From Bacillus sp. (in: firmicutes) (GTDB taxonomy: Bacteria > Bacillota > Bacilli > Bacillales > Bacillaceae): DNA of 46,215 nt. The position numbers were made by a program, and so were the translations under genes. This document shows positions 14,454 through 25,955 of the stretch, piece by piece. The stretch covers positions 1-46,215 of the forward strand of contig JAPSLL010000032.1 in assembly GCA_031180805.1 (NCBI GenBank), read 5' to 3'. Every line of letters begins with the position of its first letter. The stretch's first letter is position 1. The notes beneath the pieces are model-generated. The model searched no databases. It was given only the letters and a program-made list of their open reading frames with translations, and was not told the DNA's origin.

Positions 14454-15200
14454 ATGGAAATAACGAAAAGTAATAAAGTAGATCTTATAAAAGAAAAAGT
14501 AACCATTGTACCACATGGTAACGGTGCTACTTATTTAGTTGGTCCTATTCGTTTACCTGTTCAGTTAGAAGGAAGTACCGTTCACTTTAAATGGTATTGC
14601 TGGTTAGATGTGAAGGAGCAGAATAGTAATAGCTTAGAAGAAATTCTAGAAAAGCTACCTGATGCTAATTTAGCAAGTCAGCAGCAATCAAGTGTATTAG
14701 TTTATGGTGATTTTAATGAGTCTGAGGATGCGCTAATCCGGATGCATAGTATTTGTCATACAGGAGATATTTTTGGTAGTAAACGTTGTGATTGCGGGTA
14801 TCAATTAAAACAATCGATGAAAATGATTGTTGAGCATGGTTCAGGAGCGGTATTTTATCTTGCTAATCATGAAGGTAGAGGAATTGGATTATTTAGTAAG
14901 GCGTTAGCCTATCTCCTCCAAGAAGAAGGGTTAGACACGGTAGAAGCGAATGAGGAGTTAGGGTTTGCTGATGATACAAGAAGCTATGATGCAGCAATAC
15001 GAGTATTAAAAAATCTTCGTACGAAACCTGTAACGGTCATTACGAATAATCCGAAAAAGCTTTCTGCGCTTCAAAATTCAGGTGCAAATGTTTTAGGTCG
15101 AGTTCCTTTATGGGGAGATGTTTCAGGTTATAATAAGCATTATCTCGAGACAAAGATGGAGAAGGCAGGTCATCTTAAAGGAGGATATCCAATTGAGTGA
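14454..15200 (+). CDS. ribA: GTP cyclohydrolase II (stand-alone)
   Basis: A 248-residue enzyme that opens GTP to 2,5-diamino-6-ribosylamino-pyrimidinone phosphate, formate and pyrophosphate, the first committed step to riboflavin. The zinc site is seen in 'CHTGDIFGSKRCDCG' (C-x10-C-x-C). GTP contacts are in 'NHEGRGIGL', and the catalytic Tyr/Arg region in 'LGFADDTRSYDAA'. The N-terminal ~75 residues are an extension beyond the core. In contrast to Bacillus RibAB there is no DHBP synthase domain. Its stop codon lies inside the start of ribD, indicating translational coupling. See the finding on the isolated ribA-ribD pair. Confidence 0.9.
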   Translation: MEITKSNKVDLIKEKVTIVPHGNGATYLVGPIRLPVQLEGSTVHFKWYCWLDVKEQNSNSLEEILEKLPDANLASQQQSSVLVYGDFNESEDALIRMHSICHTGDIFGSKRCDCGYQLKQSMKMIVEHGSGAVFYLANHEGRGIGLFSKALAYLLQEEGLDTVEANEELGFADDTRSYDAAIRVLKNLRTKPVTVITNNPKKLSALQNSGANVLGRVPLWGDVSGYNKHYLETKMEKAGHLKGGYPIE

Positions 15201-16281
15201 GCATGAGTTTTATATGAATTTAGCATTGACAAATGCAAGAGCGATGAAGGGACAAACAGACCCAAATCCATTAGTAGGATCAGTTATTGTCAATGAAAAT
15301 CGAATAGTTGGTGTTGGGACACATTTAAAGGCTGGAGAACCACATGCGGAAATCCATGCATTAAGAATGGCTGGCGAGAAAGCGAGAGGTGGAACAATTT
15401 ATGTAACACTTGAGCCTTGCTCACACCATGGTCGGACAGGCCCTTGTGCTGAAGCTATTGTAAAGGCAGGATTAAAAAAAGTAGTTGTAGCCACTTTAGA
15501 TCCGAATCCTGTAGTTGCGGGGAATGGGATAAAAATTTTAAAAGATGCAAATATAGAAGTAGAGATAGGGATTTGTGAAGAGGAGTCTAAAAGGTTAAAT
15601 GAAGTTTTTAATAAATTTATCGTGACTCGAAAACCGTTTATCACCTTAAAATCAGCGATGACACTGGACGGGAAAATATCTTCCTTTAGCTGGGATAGTA
15701 AATGGATTACTTCGGAACAGGCGAGAAAGGATGTTCATCAATTACGCCATGAACATGTTGGAATCCTTGTTGGGGTAAATACTGTTGTAAAGGATAATCC
15801 AGAATTAACAACTAGAATCCCGAATGGCAGAAATCCGATACGAATTATTTTAGATAGTTCCTTGAAAATTCCTTTTGAGGCAAAGGTCGTTACAGACAAG
15901 CTAGCAGAAACATGGATTTTCACATCACAGAAATATTCTAGAGAAGCAAAGGAAAGGCTTGAACAGCTTGGTGTAAAAGTTTTTGTAACGAGTGGTAAGG
16001 AACGTGTTGATTTACATGAGACACTTTCGATTTTAGGTGAGCATTCTGTTTCATCTGTCCTAATTGAAGGAGGAGGAGAGGTAAATGCATCTTTCCTACA
16101 AGAGGGATTAGTTGATAAGCTTATCCTCTATGTTGCGCCAAAATTAATTGGTGGAAGAACCTCGCCAAGCTTCTTTTCAGGGGAAGGGATCGAAAAGATG
16201 GCAGATGCGATAAAGATAGACAACATGGAAGTCGAAAAAGTAGGGAATGACTTTAAATTTACAGGCTATGTTAATAATTAA
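15193..16281 (+). CDS. ribD: Bifunctional pyrimidine deaminase/reductase RibD
   Basis: A 362-residue enzyme for the second and third riboflavin steps. The N-terminal deaminase domain has the zinc signature 'PHAEIHAL' and 'LEPCSHHGRTGPC' (H-A-E, PC-x-x-C type). The C-terminal reductase domain (about residue 145 on) has 'KSAMTLDGKIS', 'GVNTVVKDNPELTTR' and 'VLIEGGGEVNASFL'. The TTG at 15193 is taken as start because AAAGGAGGA ends seven bases before it and the protein then has normal RibD length. The longer frame from 15118 would run far back into ribA. It overlaps ribA by 8 bases. Confidence 0.92.
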   Translation: MSEHEFYMNLALTNARAMKGQTDPNPLVGSVIVNENRIVGVGTHLKAGEPHAEIHALRMAGEKARGGTIYVTLEPCSHHGRTGPCAEAIVKAGLKKVVVATLDPNPVVAGNGIKILKDANIEVEIGICEEESKRLNEVFNKFIVTRKPFITLKSAMTLDGKISSFSWDSKWITSEQARKDVHQLRHEHVGILVGVNTVVKDNPELTTRIPNGRNPIRIILDSSLKIPFEAKVVTDKLAETWIFTSQKYSREAKERLEQLGVKVFVTSGKERVDLHETLSILGEHSVSSVLIEGGGEVNASFLQEGLVDKLILYVAPKLIGGRTSPSFFSGEGIEKMADAIKIDNMEVEKVGNDFKFTGYVNN

Positions 16282-16345: not shown

Positions 16346-16471
16346 TGTTTATATATTAGTATTGTCATCGCTAGAGAAATAGCGTAAAATAAAACCAAGT
16401 AAACATATAAGAATTATAATATATAAATGATGAAGATACATGAAAATAGAAGCTTTATTGGAGGTATAGAA

Positions 16472-17245
16472 ATGAGTGATGAGGTATATCCAGTCATATC
16501 TGGAGCTGAAAGTTTATTTTACCGAGGAAATGAAATAGGGGTTATCCTCTGCCACGGATTTAACGGAACACCACAAAGTATGCAATATATTGGTGAACAA
16601 TTAGCGAAATATGGCTATACGATTTCAATTCCACGACTATATGGACATGGAACACATTATTTAGAGTTAGAAAAATCCAGTTATCATGATTGGATAAATA
16701 GCTTGCAGTCTGCCTATGTAGATTTAACAAAAATATGTGAAAAGGTATATATTGTAGGGCAATCAATGGGAGGGGCATTAACGATACAAATTGCCGCAGG
16801 AAATCCCGAGATTGCAGGTGTTTTCTTAATAAATGCTGCGATAACGGATGTATGTTATCGCCAATATCAACATCAGGAAGAGCCAAGATTTATAGAGGAA
16901 GGAAAACCTGATATTAAAAAGCCTTCAGTCTATGAAATTACGTATGAAAAAGTTCCGATTACAGCAGTTCATCAATTATTGAACGTAATGGAGGATTCGA
17001 AGGAAAAGCTATCTCATGTTACAACTTCAACGGTTATTTTTAAGTCCGCAGTTGATCATGTCGTTCCGCCTGAAAACTCACAATATATTCTTGAACATGT
17101 AAATTCGAAAGATAAAAAAGTGATTGAACTTCAAAATTCCTACCATGTTGCTTCAATGGACTATGATGCAATGGAGATTGTGGATAACATTTATCAACAT
17201 ATTAAACAAGATATGCGAAAGAAAATAGGGAATCCTGTGAGGTAG
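16472..17245 (+). CDS. Alpha/beta hydrolase (carboxylesterase / monoacylglycerol-lipase type)
   Basis: A 257-residue cytoplasmic serine hydrolase. The oxyanion region is 'ILCHGFNGTPQSM', the nucleophile elbow 'GQSMGG', the acid Asp in 'SAVDHVVPP', and the catalytic His in 'NSYHVASMD'. The pattern resembles Bacillus/Geobacillus Est30-like carboxylesterases, which hydrolyse short acyl esters or monoacylglycerols. The physiological substrate is unknown. The ATG at 16472 follows TTGGAGGT. An in-frame ATG at 16427 has no ribosome binding site. A second esterase of the same broad family is at 25956. Confidence 0.85.
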   Translation: MSDEVYPVISGAESLFYRGNEIGVILCHGFNGTPQSMQYIGEQLAKYGYTISIPRLYGHGTHYLELEKSSYHDWINSLQSAYVDLTKICEKVYIVGQSMGGALTIQIAAGNPEIAGVFLINAAITDVCYRQYQHQEEPRFIEEGKPDIKKPSVYEITYEKVPITAVHQLLNVMEDSKEKLSHVTTSTVIFKSAVDHVVPPENSQYILEHVNSKDKKVIELQNSYHVASMDYDAMEIVDNIYQHIKQDMRKKIGNPVR

Positions 17246-17252
17246 ATAAATG

Positions 17253-17286
17253 AGCCTGTGGATAACGCAAGAATTACCCACAGGCT
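17253..17286. repeat. Inverted repeat / hairpin holding two DnaA-box-like sites
   Basis: AGCCTGTGG (17253-17261) pairs perfectly with CCACAGGCT (17278-17286). It starts 8 bases after the esterase stop but has no T run, so it is a weak terminator at best. Confidence 0.6.
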
Positions 17287-17376
17287 TGTCCACATTATTC
17301 ATAACTTTTCCACATTAATGTAAACGTTTTACAAAATATTAGAAGAAATTTACCGAATTCAACACGGTTATCCACT
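17257..17376. promoter_or_regulatory. Cluster of five DnaA-box-like 9-mers
   Basis: Within 120 bases there is one perfect DnaA box (TGTGGATAA at 17257-17265, the complement of TTATCCACA) and four 9-mers each one base off: TTACCCACA (17274-17282), TTGTCCACA (17286-17294), TTTTCCACA (17306-17314) and TTATCCACT (17368-17376). Four lie in the same orientation. Such density is far above chance. DnaA-box clusters outside oriC that titrate DnaA are known in B. subtilis; this function is inferred here. Confidence 0.7.
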
Positions 17377-17440
17377 TATAGCTGCTGAGCAATAGGCAGT
17401 TGTCCCCAATACCTGTTATTCGCTAATTACTTAAAAATAA

Positions 17441-17467
17441 AAAAGCTCGCTGAATACGAGCTTTTAT
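17441..17467 (-). terminator. Terminator of the DMT exporter gene
   Basis: AAAAGCTCG (17441-17449) pairs with CGAGCTTTT (17457-17465). On the minus strand a T-rich run follows. It overlaps the stop codon of the gene. Confidence 0.85.
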
Positions 17468-18450
17468 GTAGAAAATCGTTTCGTTGAAGCAGCAGCTTTT
17501 CCTACTTTAACTACCTTTGTTCGTGTTATATAACTATGCAACACTAAGCCTACGACTACTAATAGGATGCCAATTAAGGATATGACTGTAGGAAGTGGCG
17601 TATGTAAGAACATAATTTCACCGAATAGGACAAAAACAACTTGAATTGATTGTGTTGCTTCAACAGCTGATAGCTTTGCCATATCGTGTTGAACTAAAGT
17701 AGTTGCTTGGAAGAAGAGCAGAGTTGCAATAACTCCAGAGCAAATAGCAATAATAAATGATTGAATCGTTTGTGTCCTAGATGGAGCACCAGAAGTAAAT
17801 AGTGCGATAACGGCTAACAATATCCAAAAAGGCATACTGCAGATTGTCATACCGAGAACACGCTGAAAGACATCTATTTTTTTACCACTTAACTCCATCA
17901 TTTTGCGATTTCCTAACGGATAAGCAAAGGAGGCAATGATAATTGGGATTGTACATAATAAAACGGGCTTTAATGAAAGAGTTGTCGCATGTTCAATTTG
18001 CATAAGTGCAACACCGGCAATAATAATGAATGACATAAAAAGCCCCTTCATAGGGATTTTCCCCTTCACCTTGATTACACCATTTTCTGTCTGTCTTTCT
18101 TCATAAAAGAACGGAACGAGAAGTGAGCCTGATAAAATCGTAATTTGCCATGTTGCAGAAACTAACCAGCCTGGTCCATATGCTCCGGCAAAGCATATCG
18201 GTGCATAAAAGAGGCCGAATCCAATTGTCCCCCAAAGCACCCATTGCTTAGGATGCTTTTTCATTTCTTCTAATAGAGGCTGCCATCCCTTTCTCCCTAA
18301 TACGATTAAAAACAAAAAGGGGAGCATAAAAAAGTAACGCAATGATGCGCTCCATAGCCAGCTTCCTCCTGATAATTCCATAGAACGATTCAAGACAAAT
18401 GTAAAAGCAAAAAAGAATGATGAACAAATTCCAAGAAGAATAGCTTTCAA
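17464..18450 (-). CDS. DMT-superfamily multidrug-efflux-like transporter
   Basis: A 328-residue membrane protein with about ten hydrophobic segments, built of two EamA-like halves ('GICSSFFFAFTFVLNRSMEL' at the start; 'SFAYPLGNRKMMELSGKK' in the second half). It resembles the putative multidrug-resistance efflux (EmrE-like) branch of the drug/metabolite transporter superfamily. The substrate is unknown. It begins with TTG, supported by GAGGTGG six bases upstream. The last ~20 residues are basic and cytoplasmic. It is monocistronic with its own terminator. Confidence 0.83.
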   Translation of the reverse strand: MKAILLGICSSFFFAFTFVLNRSMELSGGSWLWSASLRYFFMLPFLFLIVLGRKGWQPLLEEMKKHPKQWVLWGTIGFGLFYAPICFAGAYGPGWLVSATWQITILSGSLLVPFFYEERQTENGVIKVKGKIPMKGLFMSFIIIAGVALMQIEHATTLSLKPVLLCTIPIIIASFAYPLGNRKMMELSGKKIDVFQRVLGMTICSMPFWILLAVIALFTSGAPSRTQTIQSFIIAICSGVIATLLFFQATTLVQHDMAKLSAVEATQSIQVVFVLFGEIMFLHTPLPTVISLIGILLVVVGLVLHSYITRTKVVKVGKAAASTKRFST

Positions 18451-24457: not shown

Positions 24458-25822
24458 TTGATACGAAGAACATTATCTCATATTGAAAAAGCGGTACATG
24501 GCTGGGGGTTAGCTGAACCAGATTACAATCTTGAAATTTATGGGGTCACAACAGATTCCCGTGCAGTAATTAAGGGGAATTTGTTTTTTCCGCTTGTTGG
24601 AGAAAAATTTAATGGGCATGAATTTGTTGCAAGTGCATTAAAAAATGGTGCAAGTGCAATTATATGGCAGGAATCAGAAGGAAACCCTCCGAAAGATGTT
24701 CCAGTCATTTTTGTTAAAGATACATTACGTGCATTACAGCTGCTTGCAGAGGCTTACTTAAATGAAGTGAAACCAAAAATTGTAGGAATTACGGGAAGTA
24801 ATGGGAAGACAACAACGAAGGATATGGTCGCATCTGTTCTTGAAACAACCTATAAAGTTCATAAAACAAAGGGGAATTTCAATAATCATATAGGTTTACC
24901 AATAACTGTGCTAAATATGGAAGAGAAGACGGAGATAGCCATATTAGAAATGGGCATGAGCGGTAAAGGAGAAATAGAGCTGTTATCAAAAATTGCAAAA
25001 CCAGATGTAGCGATTATAACGAATATTGGTGAAGCACATCTGATGGATTTAGGCTCAAGGGAAGGAATTGCTGATGCTAAGCTAGAAATTGTAAAAGGTT
25101 TGAAGGAAGACGGCATCTTAATTTATCATGGTGATGAGCCACTTCTAGAAGAAAGAGTGCAGGCTTTACCTATTAAAACCATTACTTTTGGGGAACGCAG
25201 CCAAAACGACTTTGTTGCAACGAACATGAAGCAAGCGATTAACGGCACAAGCTTTCAAGTAAATAATGTAGAATACACAATACCTGTTTTAGGTAAGCAT
25301 AATGTTCTAAATGCTTTAGCAGCATATGCAGTCGCAAAGCATTTCGAAGTACAGGAGGATGCAATAATTCAAGGATTTAGCCAATTAAAGGTAACGGGAA
25401 TGAGATTAGAGCTCATAGAGACAGAGCAAGGTGTATCTTTCATTAATGATGCATATAATGCAAGCCCTAGCTCAATGAGGGCTGCAATCAATCTATTGGT
25501 GGATCTTGACGGTTTCAATCAAAAAATCGTTGTTTTAGGAGATATGCTTGAATTAGGAGAAGAAGAAAAGGAATATCACTATCAGATTGGGGCTTCTATT
25601 GATTCTGCTAAAATAGATTATGTGTTTACATATGGCTCATTAGGGAAGGAAATTGCTAGAGGTGCGGAAGAGAAATTTTCTCCAAATGTAATTCACCATT
25701 TTGATGATAAAAATGCGTTAATTAAACAACTAAAATCATATCTGCAACCTAAAGATATTGTTCTTGTTAAAGCATCACGTGGTATGAGGCTTGAAGAAGT
25801 AGTCAATGCACTAACTAATTGA
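24458..25822 (+). CDS. murF: UDP-MurNAc-tripeptide--D-alanyl-D-alanine ligase
   Basis: A 454-residue Mur ligase that adds D-Ala-D-Ala to UDP-MurNAc-tripeptide, the last cytoplasmic peptide step. Substrate-domain start 'VTTDSRAVIKGNLFFPLVGE'; ATP P-loop 'GITGSNGKTTTKDM' (about residue 110); 'HLMDLGSREGIADAKLEI'; C-terminal domain 'INDAYNASPSSMRAAI' and 'VLGDMLELGE'. The TTG at 24458 fits AAAGGAGTG six bases upstream and the usual MI(K/R)RT start. The GTG at 24449 overlaps that box. It works directly with the ddl product upstream. Confidence 0.95.
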   Translation: MIRRTLSHIEKAVHGWGLAEPDYNLEIYGVTTDSRAVIKGNLFFPLVGEKFNGHEFVASALKNGASAIIWQESEGNPPKDVPVIFVKDTLRALQLLAEAYLNEVKPKIVGITGSNGKTTTKDMVASVLETTYKVHKTKGNFNNHIGLPITVLNMEEKTEIAILEMGMSGKGEIELLSKIAKPDVAIITNIGEAHLMDLGSREGIADAKLEIVKGLKEDGILIYHGDEPLLEERVQALPIKTITFGERSQNDFVATNMKQAINGTSFQVNNVEYTIPVLGKHNVLNALAAYAVAKHFEVQEDAIIQGFSQLKVTGMRLELIETEQGVSFINDAYNASPSSMRAAINLLVDLDGFNQKIVVLGDMLELGEEEKEYHYQIGASIDSAKIDYVFTYGSLGKEIARGAEEKFSPNVIHHFDDKNALIKQLKSYLQPKDIVLVKASRGMRLEEVVNALTN

Positions 25823-25955
25823 AAAACATGTGGATGAAATTTTTATAAAAAGTGAATGATAACATTGTGGAAAACACCATTTCCTTACCTTCGAAAAATG
25901 ACATTTTGCCATATAAACGTGTGTGTATGCTTTCAAAGGGAGGTTTACATTTCAT

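Follow-up and report, generated by a model that had tools for sequence, protein, structure and literature searches.

A near-rigid, conserved array of DnaA boxes at an esterase gene junction in Metabacillus, probably an oriC-proximal DnaA-sequestering cluster

Genes and DnaA boxes at the esterase junction

The stretch of DNA analysed here (the window; 46,215 bases) comes from a draft genome (G000; 4.58 Mb, 119 contigs) belonging to the genus Metabacillus, the closest named relative by identity of the window esterase being M. niabensis (93%). The esterase gene (16472..17245, forward strand) encodes an alpha/beta hydrolase (serine aminopeptidase S33/esterase-like; Pfam PF12146, E 2.6e-21); its ORF opens at 16427, but translation most likely begins at the ATG at 16472, which, as read from the sequence, is preceded by GGAGG. 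The 5′ neighbour is ribD (15118..16281, forward strand). On the other side a putative efflux transporter gene of the EmrE family (PF13536; 17464..18450, reverse strand) is convergent with the esterase gene, and an intrinsic terminator-like hairpin (17441..17465, reverse strand) marks its end. A plasmid origin of the site was considered and dropped, as the segment 17100-17500 has no match in 72,556 plasmid records (distant mode).

A DnaA box was taken to be any sequence differing from TTATCCACA at one position or none; in comparisons across genomes, two mismatches were accepted at array positions 2–4 (see below). Seven boxes, two perfect and five imperfect, lie within 198 bp (17179-17376), spanning the 3′ end of the esterase gene and extending into the gap before the convergent transporter gene. 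Two of these are in coding sequence: a perfect box on the reverse strand (17179..17187), coinciding with the codons GTG GAT AAC near the 3′ end of the esterase gene, and TTATCAACA (17191..17199, forward strand; one mismatch) in the last codons, which is found at the same position in the nearest relative (G010). A perfect reverse box (17257..17265, reverse strand) and three forward boxes with one mismatch each (TTACCCACA, 17274..17282; TTGTCCACA, 17286..17294; TTTTCCACA, 17306..17314; all forward strand) occupy positions 1 to 4 of an array found in 20 genomes; in all 20, position 1 has at most one mismatch and positions 2, 3 and 4 have at most two. The remaining box, TTATCCACT (17368..17376, forward strand; one mismatch), is outside the conserved array and reads TTATCCCCA in G010. 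The original prediction had recognised five boxes, every one of which was recovered between 17257 and 17376, but its extent was too narrow, missing the two boxes at the coding end, and its account lacked both the near-rigid spacing of the boxes and a second element at fixed distance from them.

The perfect box at the coding end suggests selection on the DNA itself, since the triplet GTG GAT AAC has an expected frequency of 0.019 (from the codon use of 17 window ORFs) and ATYGTGGATAACAT is present at this position in 12 of 20 genomes; the species are related, so this is put forward with caution. Elsewhere in the window, a pair of single-mismatch boxes, 37 bp apart (25829-25874), lies between an ORF whose end is at 25822 and one that begins at 25923.

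Box density and genome-wide ranking of clusters

When one mismatch is allowed, G000 contains 1538 boxes, compared with 1739 matches to a reversed control pattern; perfect boxes number 65, compared with 75. A genome-wide excess of perfect boxes was accordingly dropped as evidence, boxes being no commoner than the reversed pattern, and the 13 boxes in the whole window are not above the number in dinucleotide shuffles (mean 15.3). Only clustering sets the boxes apart from the reversed control. At the genome-wide rate 0.04 box is expected per 120 bp, where five were found, in agreement with the original estimate that chance would supply far fewer than one. The Poisson probability of at least five boxes in 120 bp is 8.5e-10 (~3e-5 over the whole genome) and that of seven boxes in 198 bp is 1e-12 (~2.5e-8 genome-wide). 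A group of boxes that arose by chance or drift and has no function would be in keeping with the abundance of single-mismatch sites in G000 and with the imperfection of five of the seven junction boxes. Such an origin is nevertheless extremely improbable, given the genome-wide expectation for five boxes in 120 bp and, as the chief objection, the fixed spacing and the higher identity of boxes than of spacers across 20 genomes described below.

Clusters were ranked by the number of boxes, perfect or with a single mismatch, that lie up to 200 bp to either side of each of the 65 perfect boxes, the central box included; the ranking thus covers groups containing a perfect box. No neighbour was found for 32 of the perfect boxes and one neighbour for 10. 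Groups of at least five boxes occur at six places only: the region before dnaA, taken as oriC (contig C101; up to 10 boxes), between tsaC/ywlC and a GNAT gene (C33; eight boxes), upstream of an N-acetylmuramoyl-L-alanine amidase gene (C115; seven boxes), the window site (seven boxes), beside rlmH/yydA (C101; six boxes, all perfect) and between tsaD/gcp and an ABC-F gene (C85; five boxes). At a threshold of at least four boxes these are joined by the group between sda and yqeG (C44; four boxes), and two perfect boxes lie upstream of mnmE/trmE. Around 30 of the 75 reversed-pattern sites, used as a control, the count never exceeded two including the site itself (at most one neighbour). A search for similar density elsewhere, proposed with the original prediction as a check, therefore yielded nothing comparable in the surroundings of perfect boxes other than clusters of known type and the amidase site. 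Since groups of at least four boxes are so few (oriC, counterparts of the B. subtilis DnaA-box clusters, or DBCs, the amidase site and the window), the window site appears, on sequence grounds, to be of a kind with the regions that DnaA binds in B. subtilis. The genes beside these clusters presumably correspond to ywlC, yydA, ydiF and others of B. subtilis. Their identification fits Table 1 of PMC4447404.

A scan for triple CCACA, which reaches some of the groups lacking a perfect box, gave nine matches (three overlapping at ywlC, one each in the window, oriC and the amidase cluster, and three elsewhere), fewer than the 27 of its reversed control, of which 23 are on one strand, and is descriptive only. 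Among the groups ranked in this way in G000, the rlmH/yydA cluster (C101:151412-151717; L067:1913-2218) contains the largest number of perfect boxes, six in ~300 bp.

Conservation of a 73-bp array in Metabacillus

A relative of the esterase is present in all 21 Metabacillus genomes. In 20 of these, the 300 bp from -90 to +210 of the esterase stop codon contain three to seven boxes each, amounting to 90 boxes versus seven control matches in the 20 esterase-end stretches. The exception, G004, has an esterase relative (56% identity) with no boxes and without an adjoining ribD match, and four esterase paralogues also have none. Outside the genus, 10 of 59 genomes from the family had a relative of the esterase at E 1e-70; of the ten homologues from other genera nine were scanned, eight having no box and one having a single box.

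The conserved unit is a near-rigid array of 73 bp, consisting of the reverse box, the three forward boxes and an 11-bp element, in 20 of 21 Metabacillus genomes. With the start of forward box 3 as reference, the other boxes are offset by -49 (reverse box; one genome has -50), by -31 or -32 (forward box 1) and by -20 (forward box 2) in every one of the 20. Mean pairwise identity in the 20-genome alignment is 0.80 for the 36 box columns and 0.85 for the 11 element columns, compared with 0.44 for the 26 spacer columns and 0.39 for 51 downstream columns, and a 15-genome subset without some of the close relatives gives almost the same values (0.80 box, 0.84 element, 0.44 spacer and 0.38 downstream). 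As the 20 genomes are related, and hence not independent tests, the contrast between box and spacer columns is the main safeguard. Conservation in relatives, suggested originally as a check, was thus borne out by retention of the array in 20 of 21 congeners, and the arrangement of the boxes appears to have been kept by selection. Because most array boxes have one or two mismatches in one genome or another, the affinity of single boxes for DnaA may be modest.

A composite pattern joining boxes 2 and 3 to the element, at up to two mismatches, is present as a single copy in each of 20 of the 21 congeners and absent from G004; it was written from sequences of the genus, so that matches within the genus to this pattern, or to that of the element, hold by construction. 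What carries information is that each genome has one copy only and that matches are lacking outside the genus and, for the element, at two other clusters. In 397 genomes drawn from the order, which included no Metabacillus other than G000, the sole match was G000 itself, with none in the other 396.

The 11-bp element and a possible partner protein

The element (TGWAARC[AGC]YTT; 17319..17329, forward strand) lies 4 bp 3′ of box 3; its offset from the beginning of that box is +13 in all 20 genomes, a fixed distance for a pattern written from these same sequences. In G000 it belongs to a dyad, TGTAAA-CGT-TTTACA (17319-17333), which is complete in G010 and G016 also and has one to five mismatches in the other 17 genomes. 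The pattern occurs four times elsewhere in G000 (85,470 bp scanned) and is missing from all 20 gcp cluster stretches and all 20 amidase cluster stretches of Metabacillus that were searched. Its fixed distance and its absence from those two clusters point, more tentatively than the boxes point to DnaA, to a second protein that might bind the element and stabilise or gate a DnaA complex.

The element resembles the catabolite-responsive element (cre) of CcpA, which has the consensus TGWAANCGNTNWCA and a near invariant central CG. However, each of the 20 sequences has one to three mismatches to TGWAANCGNTNWCA, and the central dinucleotide is CG in seven, CA in 12 and CC in one, i.e. CG is missing in 13 of 20; cre-like sequences with at most one mismatch are also not rare (seven in 170,940 strand-bases of G000). 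CcpA was therefore set aside as the partner and is kept as a lead only, and no joint DnaA-CcpA site was found in the available part of PMC1866360.

Inverted boxes and folding

Array positions 1 and 2, together with short flanks, form an inverted repeat (17253..17286; 14 bp paired, 6-base loop), corresponding to the hairpin with two boxes as its arms in the original prediction. It is terminator-like on the reverse strand, and from this score may play some part in transcript ends. Folded as single-stranded DNA, 17246-17380 gives z = -3.1. The inverted boxes can pair at eight or nine of nine positions in all 20 array genomes, as inverted boxes must; extension of the stem past the boxes is 4 or 5 bp in seven genomes and 0 to 3 bp in 13. 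The extended hairpin, short or absent in these 13, was dropped as the conserved feature.

These properties, and the constant position of the array 3′ of the esterase gene, raise the question of an element acting at the RNA level, i.e. a hairpin, a terminator or a stabilising structure in the transcript of the esterase or transporter gene, its match to DnaA boxes being incidental. Outward pairing is also above expectation (49, against a shuffle mean of 28; reached by two of 5000 shuffles), although shared ancestry inflates this figure. Such an element is very unlikely to be the explanation, since the extended stem is not kept in most genomes and the box pairs used differ by lineage, no T run comes after the hairpin on the esterase strand, and the third forward box, the element fixed at +13 and the perfect box at the coding end are all left without explanation.

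Neighbouring genes and chromosomal position

While ribD is 5′ of the esterase gene in all 20 genomes with the array, the array stays as the downstream gene changes between species: 11 genomes have a co-directional GNAT gene there, six a convergent EmrE-family gene, one a LysE gene and two none of these. This bears on whether DnaA bound at the array might regulate the esterase gene or its downstream neighbour. The co-directional GNAT (11/20) or LysE (1/20) genes do have the array in their upstream region, and DnaA is reported to act as a gene regulator at several B. subtilis sites (PMC4447404). Where the EmrE-family gene is convergent (six genomes, including G000), however, the array is identical in layout, it sits 3′ of the esterase gene, and a scan limited to the window genome revealed no sigma-70-like promoter in 17100-17600. 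Flanking-gene regulation, the second of two functions originally proposed, is thus disfavoured and appears improbable; the first, a DnaA titration site, gains from the likeness to DBCs set out below.

In near-complete genomes the distance from dnaA to the esterase gene is 190, 191, 194, 206, 208, 222 or 234 kb, and 1152 kb in G005, placing the site near oriC in seven of eight congeners. In all eight, tsaD (gcp) follows 35–46 kb beyond the array on the same arm. In G000, dnaA is on a different contig (C101) from the window, and gene order suggests that the site is close to oriC here as well. The esterase array and tsaD of G005 (a four-contig assembly) are together on contig C1, 1152-1191 kb from dnaA instead of the ~190-275 kb seen elsewhere, indicating that this segment has been moved or misassembled.

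Comparison with B. subtilis clusters and proposed function

The closest parallel is the gcp/ydiF cluster of B. subtilis, located where two genes converge. DnaA binding at this cluster is proven (PMC4447404), and Table 1 of that paper gives it 10 sites, bound more tightly by ATP-DnaA than by ADP-DnaA. It shares with the window site dense boxes in both orientations, convergent gene ends and a location outside oriC, but differs in locus, box order and spacing and lacks TGWAARC[AGC]YTT (0/20). The gcp cluster, whose G000 counterpart is on contig C85, was used as a positive control, with 30 of 78 matching loci scanned within 490 bp. All 30 genomes scanned have three to nine boxes, and none of the 21 Metabacillus genomes, G004 among them, departs from the cluster's spacing, a forward box with reverse boxes following at 78-80, 109-111 and 118-120. 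As this control keeps a spacing of its own, conservation of boxes at fixed spacing seems to characterise genuine clusters of this kind. The remaining strong B. subtilis regions outside oriC in Table 1 of PMC4447404 are ywcI/vpr, ywlC, yydA, trmE and yqeG/sda; they differ from the window site in being upstream of genes, several of them reported to be DnaA-regulated. The ywlC, yydA, trmE and yqeG/sda sites resemble it as clustered boxes outside oriC and have counterparts in G000, and no ywcI/vpr counterpart was found among the G000 groups around perfect boxes. The esterase junction is not among the eight strong DnaA regions of B. subtilis given in the part of PMC4447404 consulted.

The site is probably a DnaA-sequestering DBC, proximal to but outside oriC, that restrains initiation and is specific to Metabacillus among the genomes searched. 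The features of this class that can be assessed from sequence, namely clustering outside oriC, proximity to oriC and a kept arrangement, all appear to be present. The likeness to the oriC-proximal clusters of B. subtilis, first drawn in the original prediction, holds in density, which is comparable, in conservation (20/21) and in location near oriC (7/8). Counter-evidence comes from G004, which lacks the site despite keeping the gcp cluster, and from G005, where it is 1152 kb from dnaA.

If the site is a DBC, DnaA would bind the array cooperatively as an ordered multimer. Close to oriC, the site would be copied soon after initiation, and the new copies of the array would take up DnaA and so delay the next initiation, as reported for B. 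subtilis clusters; a second protein on the fixed element might, more speculatively, stabilise or gate the DnaA complex. Removal of six clusters in B. subtilis (originally Okumura 2012) is reported to result in earlier initiation (PMC5295017 and PMC13220808), with a strong effect only when all six are removed together according to PMC5295017, so that the effect of a single site may be small.

A pure titration sink would need neither near-rigid spacing nor an additional element, and titration alone therefore fails to explain the anatomy of the site. A rival proposal is that the array is a regulatory device and not a sink, in which DnaA in fixed geometry and a partner alter the nucleotide or oligomer state of DnaA, as at datA or DARS. 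DARS1 and DARS2 have established gene places in E. coli, and a DARS core consists of three boxes. These sites and datA share with the window site the grouping of DnaA boxes in non-coding DNA outside oriC, and a partner protein, IHF, is reported for datA (PMC13220808), where the window array has its element as a candidate partner site. The near-rigid spacing with a partner-like element at fixed distance in 20 of 20 genomes, and the absence of that element from the gcp and amidase stretches (0/20 each), fit the proposal. Spacing between tandem boxes is also close, at 12 bp in the DARS places and 11–12 bp in the window array. As read from the E. coli K-12 sequence, with up to two mismatches allowed per box, however, the DARS1 and DARS2 places have a forward box, 14 bp, a reverse box, 12 bp and a reverse box, with the first two convergent, whereas the window array has a divergent inverted pair at 17–18 bp, followed by 11–12 and 20 bp, and the opposite polarity. 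Membership of the DARS group thus failed on layout (the datA place was also compared). PMC13220808 also reports that datA, DARS1 and DARS2 are absent from B. subtilis, as is IHF, and the gcp cluster keeps its spacing in 21 of 21 genomes without the element, so that fixed spacing alone does not imply activity of the datA/DARS kind. Overall, we regard a device of this kind in place of a sink as unlikely.

A related idea, likewise unlikely, is that the array is a geometry-locked device for control of DnaA, with four boxes and a dedicated partner site, in which a signal read by the partner would change DnaA activity. If true, this would to our knowledge be the first such site in Bacillota outside oriC with a fixed layout and a co-factor site, similar in working to datA/DARS and independently evolved within one genus. 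Whether B. subtilis possesses regulators of the balance between ATP-DnaA and ADP-DnaA is called unknown in a 2026 review (PMC13220808).

A cluster found in a single genus and with spacing held within one base pair suggests selection on such sites and on their architecture. The 73-bp module and its natural variants in 20 genomes would allow cooperative binding, titration and a partner protein to be tested directly, and the element behind box 3 makes involvement of partner proteins at clusters a testable question. A search of the open-licence literature found no report of the esterase-junction site, or of a DnaA box together with Metabacillus, which is no proof of absence.

Additional features of the gcp and amidase clusters

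In the gcp cluster of Metabacillus (3′ flank of tsaD; L128-L147), conserved blocks around TTGTAGAATTGTGTAAAA, CCTGTCAAATC and TCTGTTGATATGTTGGAAATA lie between the boxes in many of the 20 aligned sequences, among the matches listed, and hint at partners besides DnaA. In G020 (L146) this cluster starts ~390 bp past tsaD, further than in other Metabacillus; the intervening DNA contains two additional perfect boxes, and the spacing of the cluster itself is intact.

The cluster upstream of the amidase gene (C115:15745-15925; L169:9745-9925; L172-L191) is a second one without a match among the top eight B. subtilis regions. It has four to 10 boxes in all 20 Metabacillus genomes with the gene, and four paralogues have none or one; G004, without a match to the amidase gene at E 1e-60, also lacks the window array and keeps the gcp cluster. 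The amidase cluster is 516–660 kb from dnaA in seven of eight near-complete genomes and 1494 kb from it in G005.
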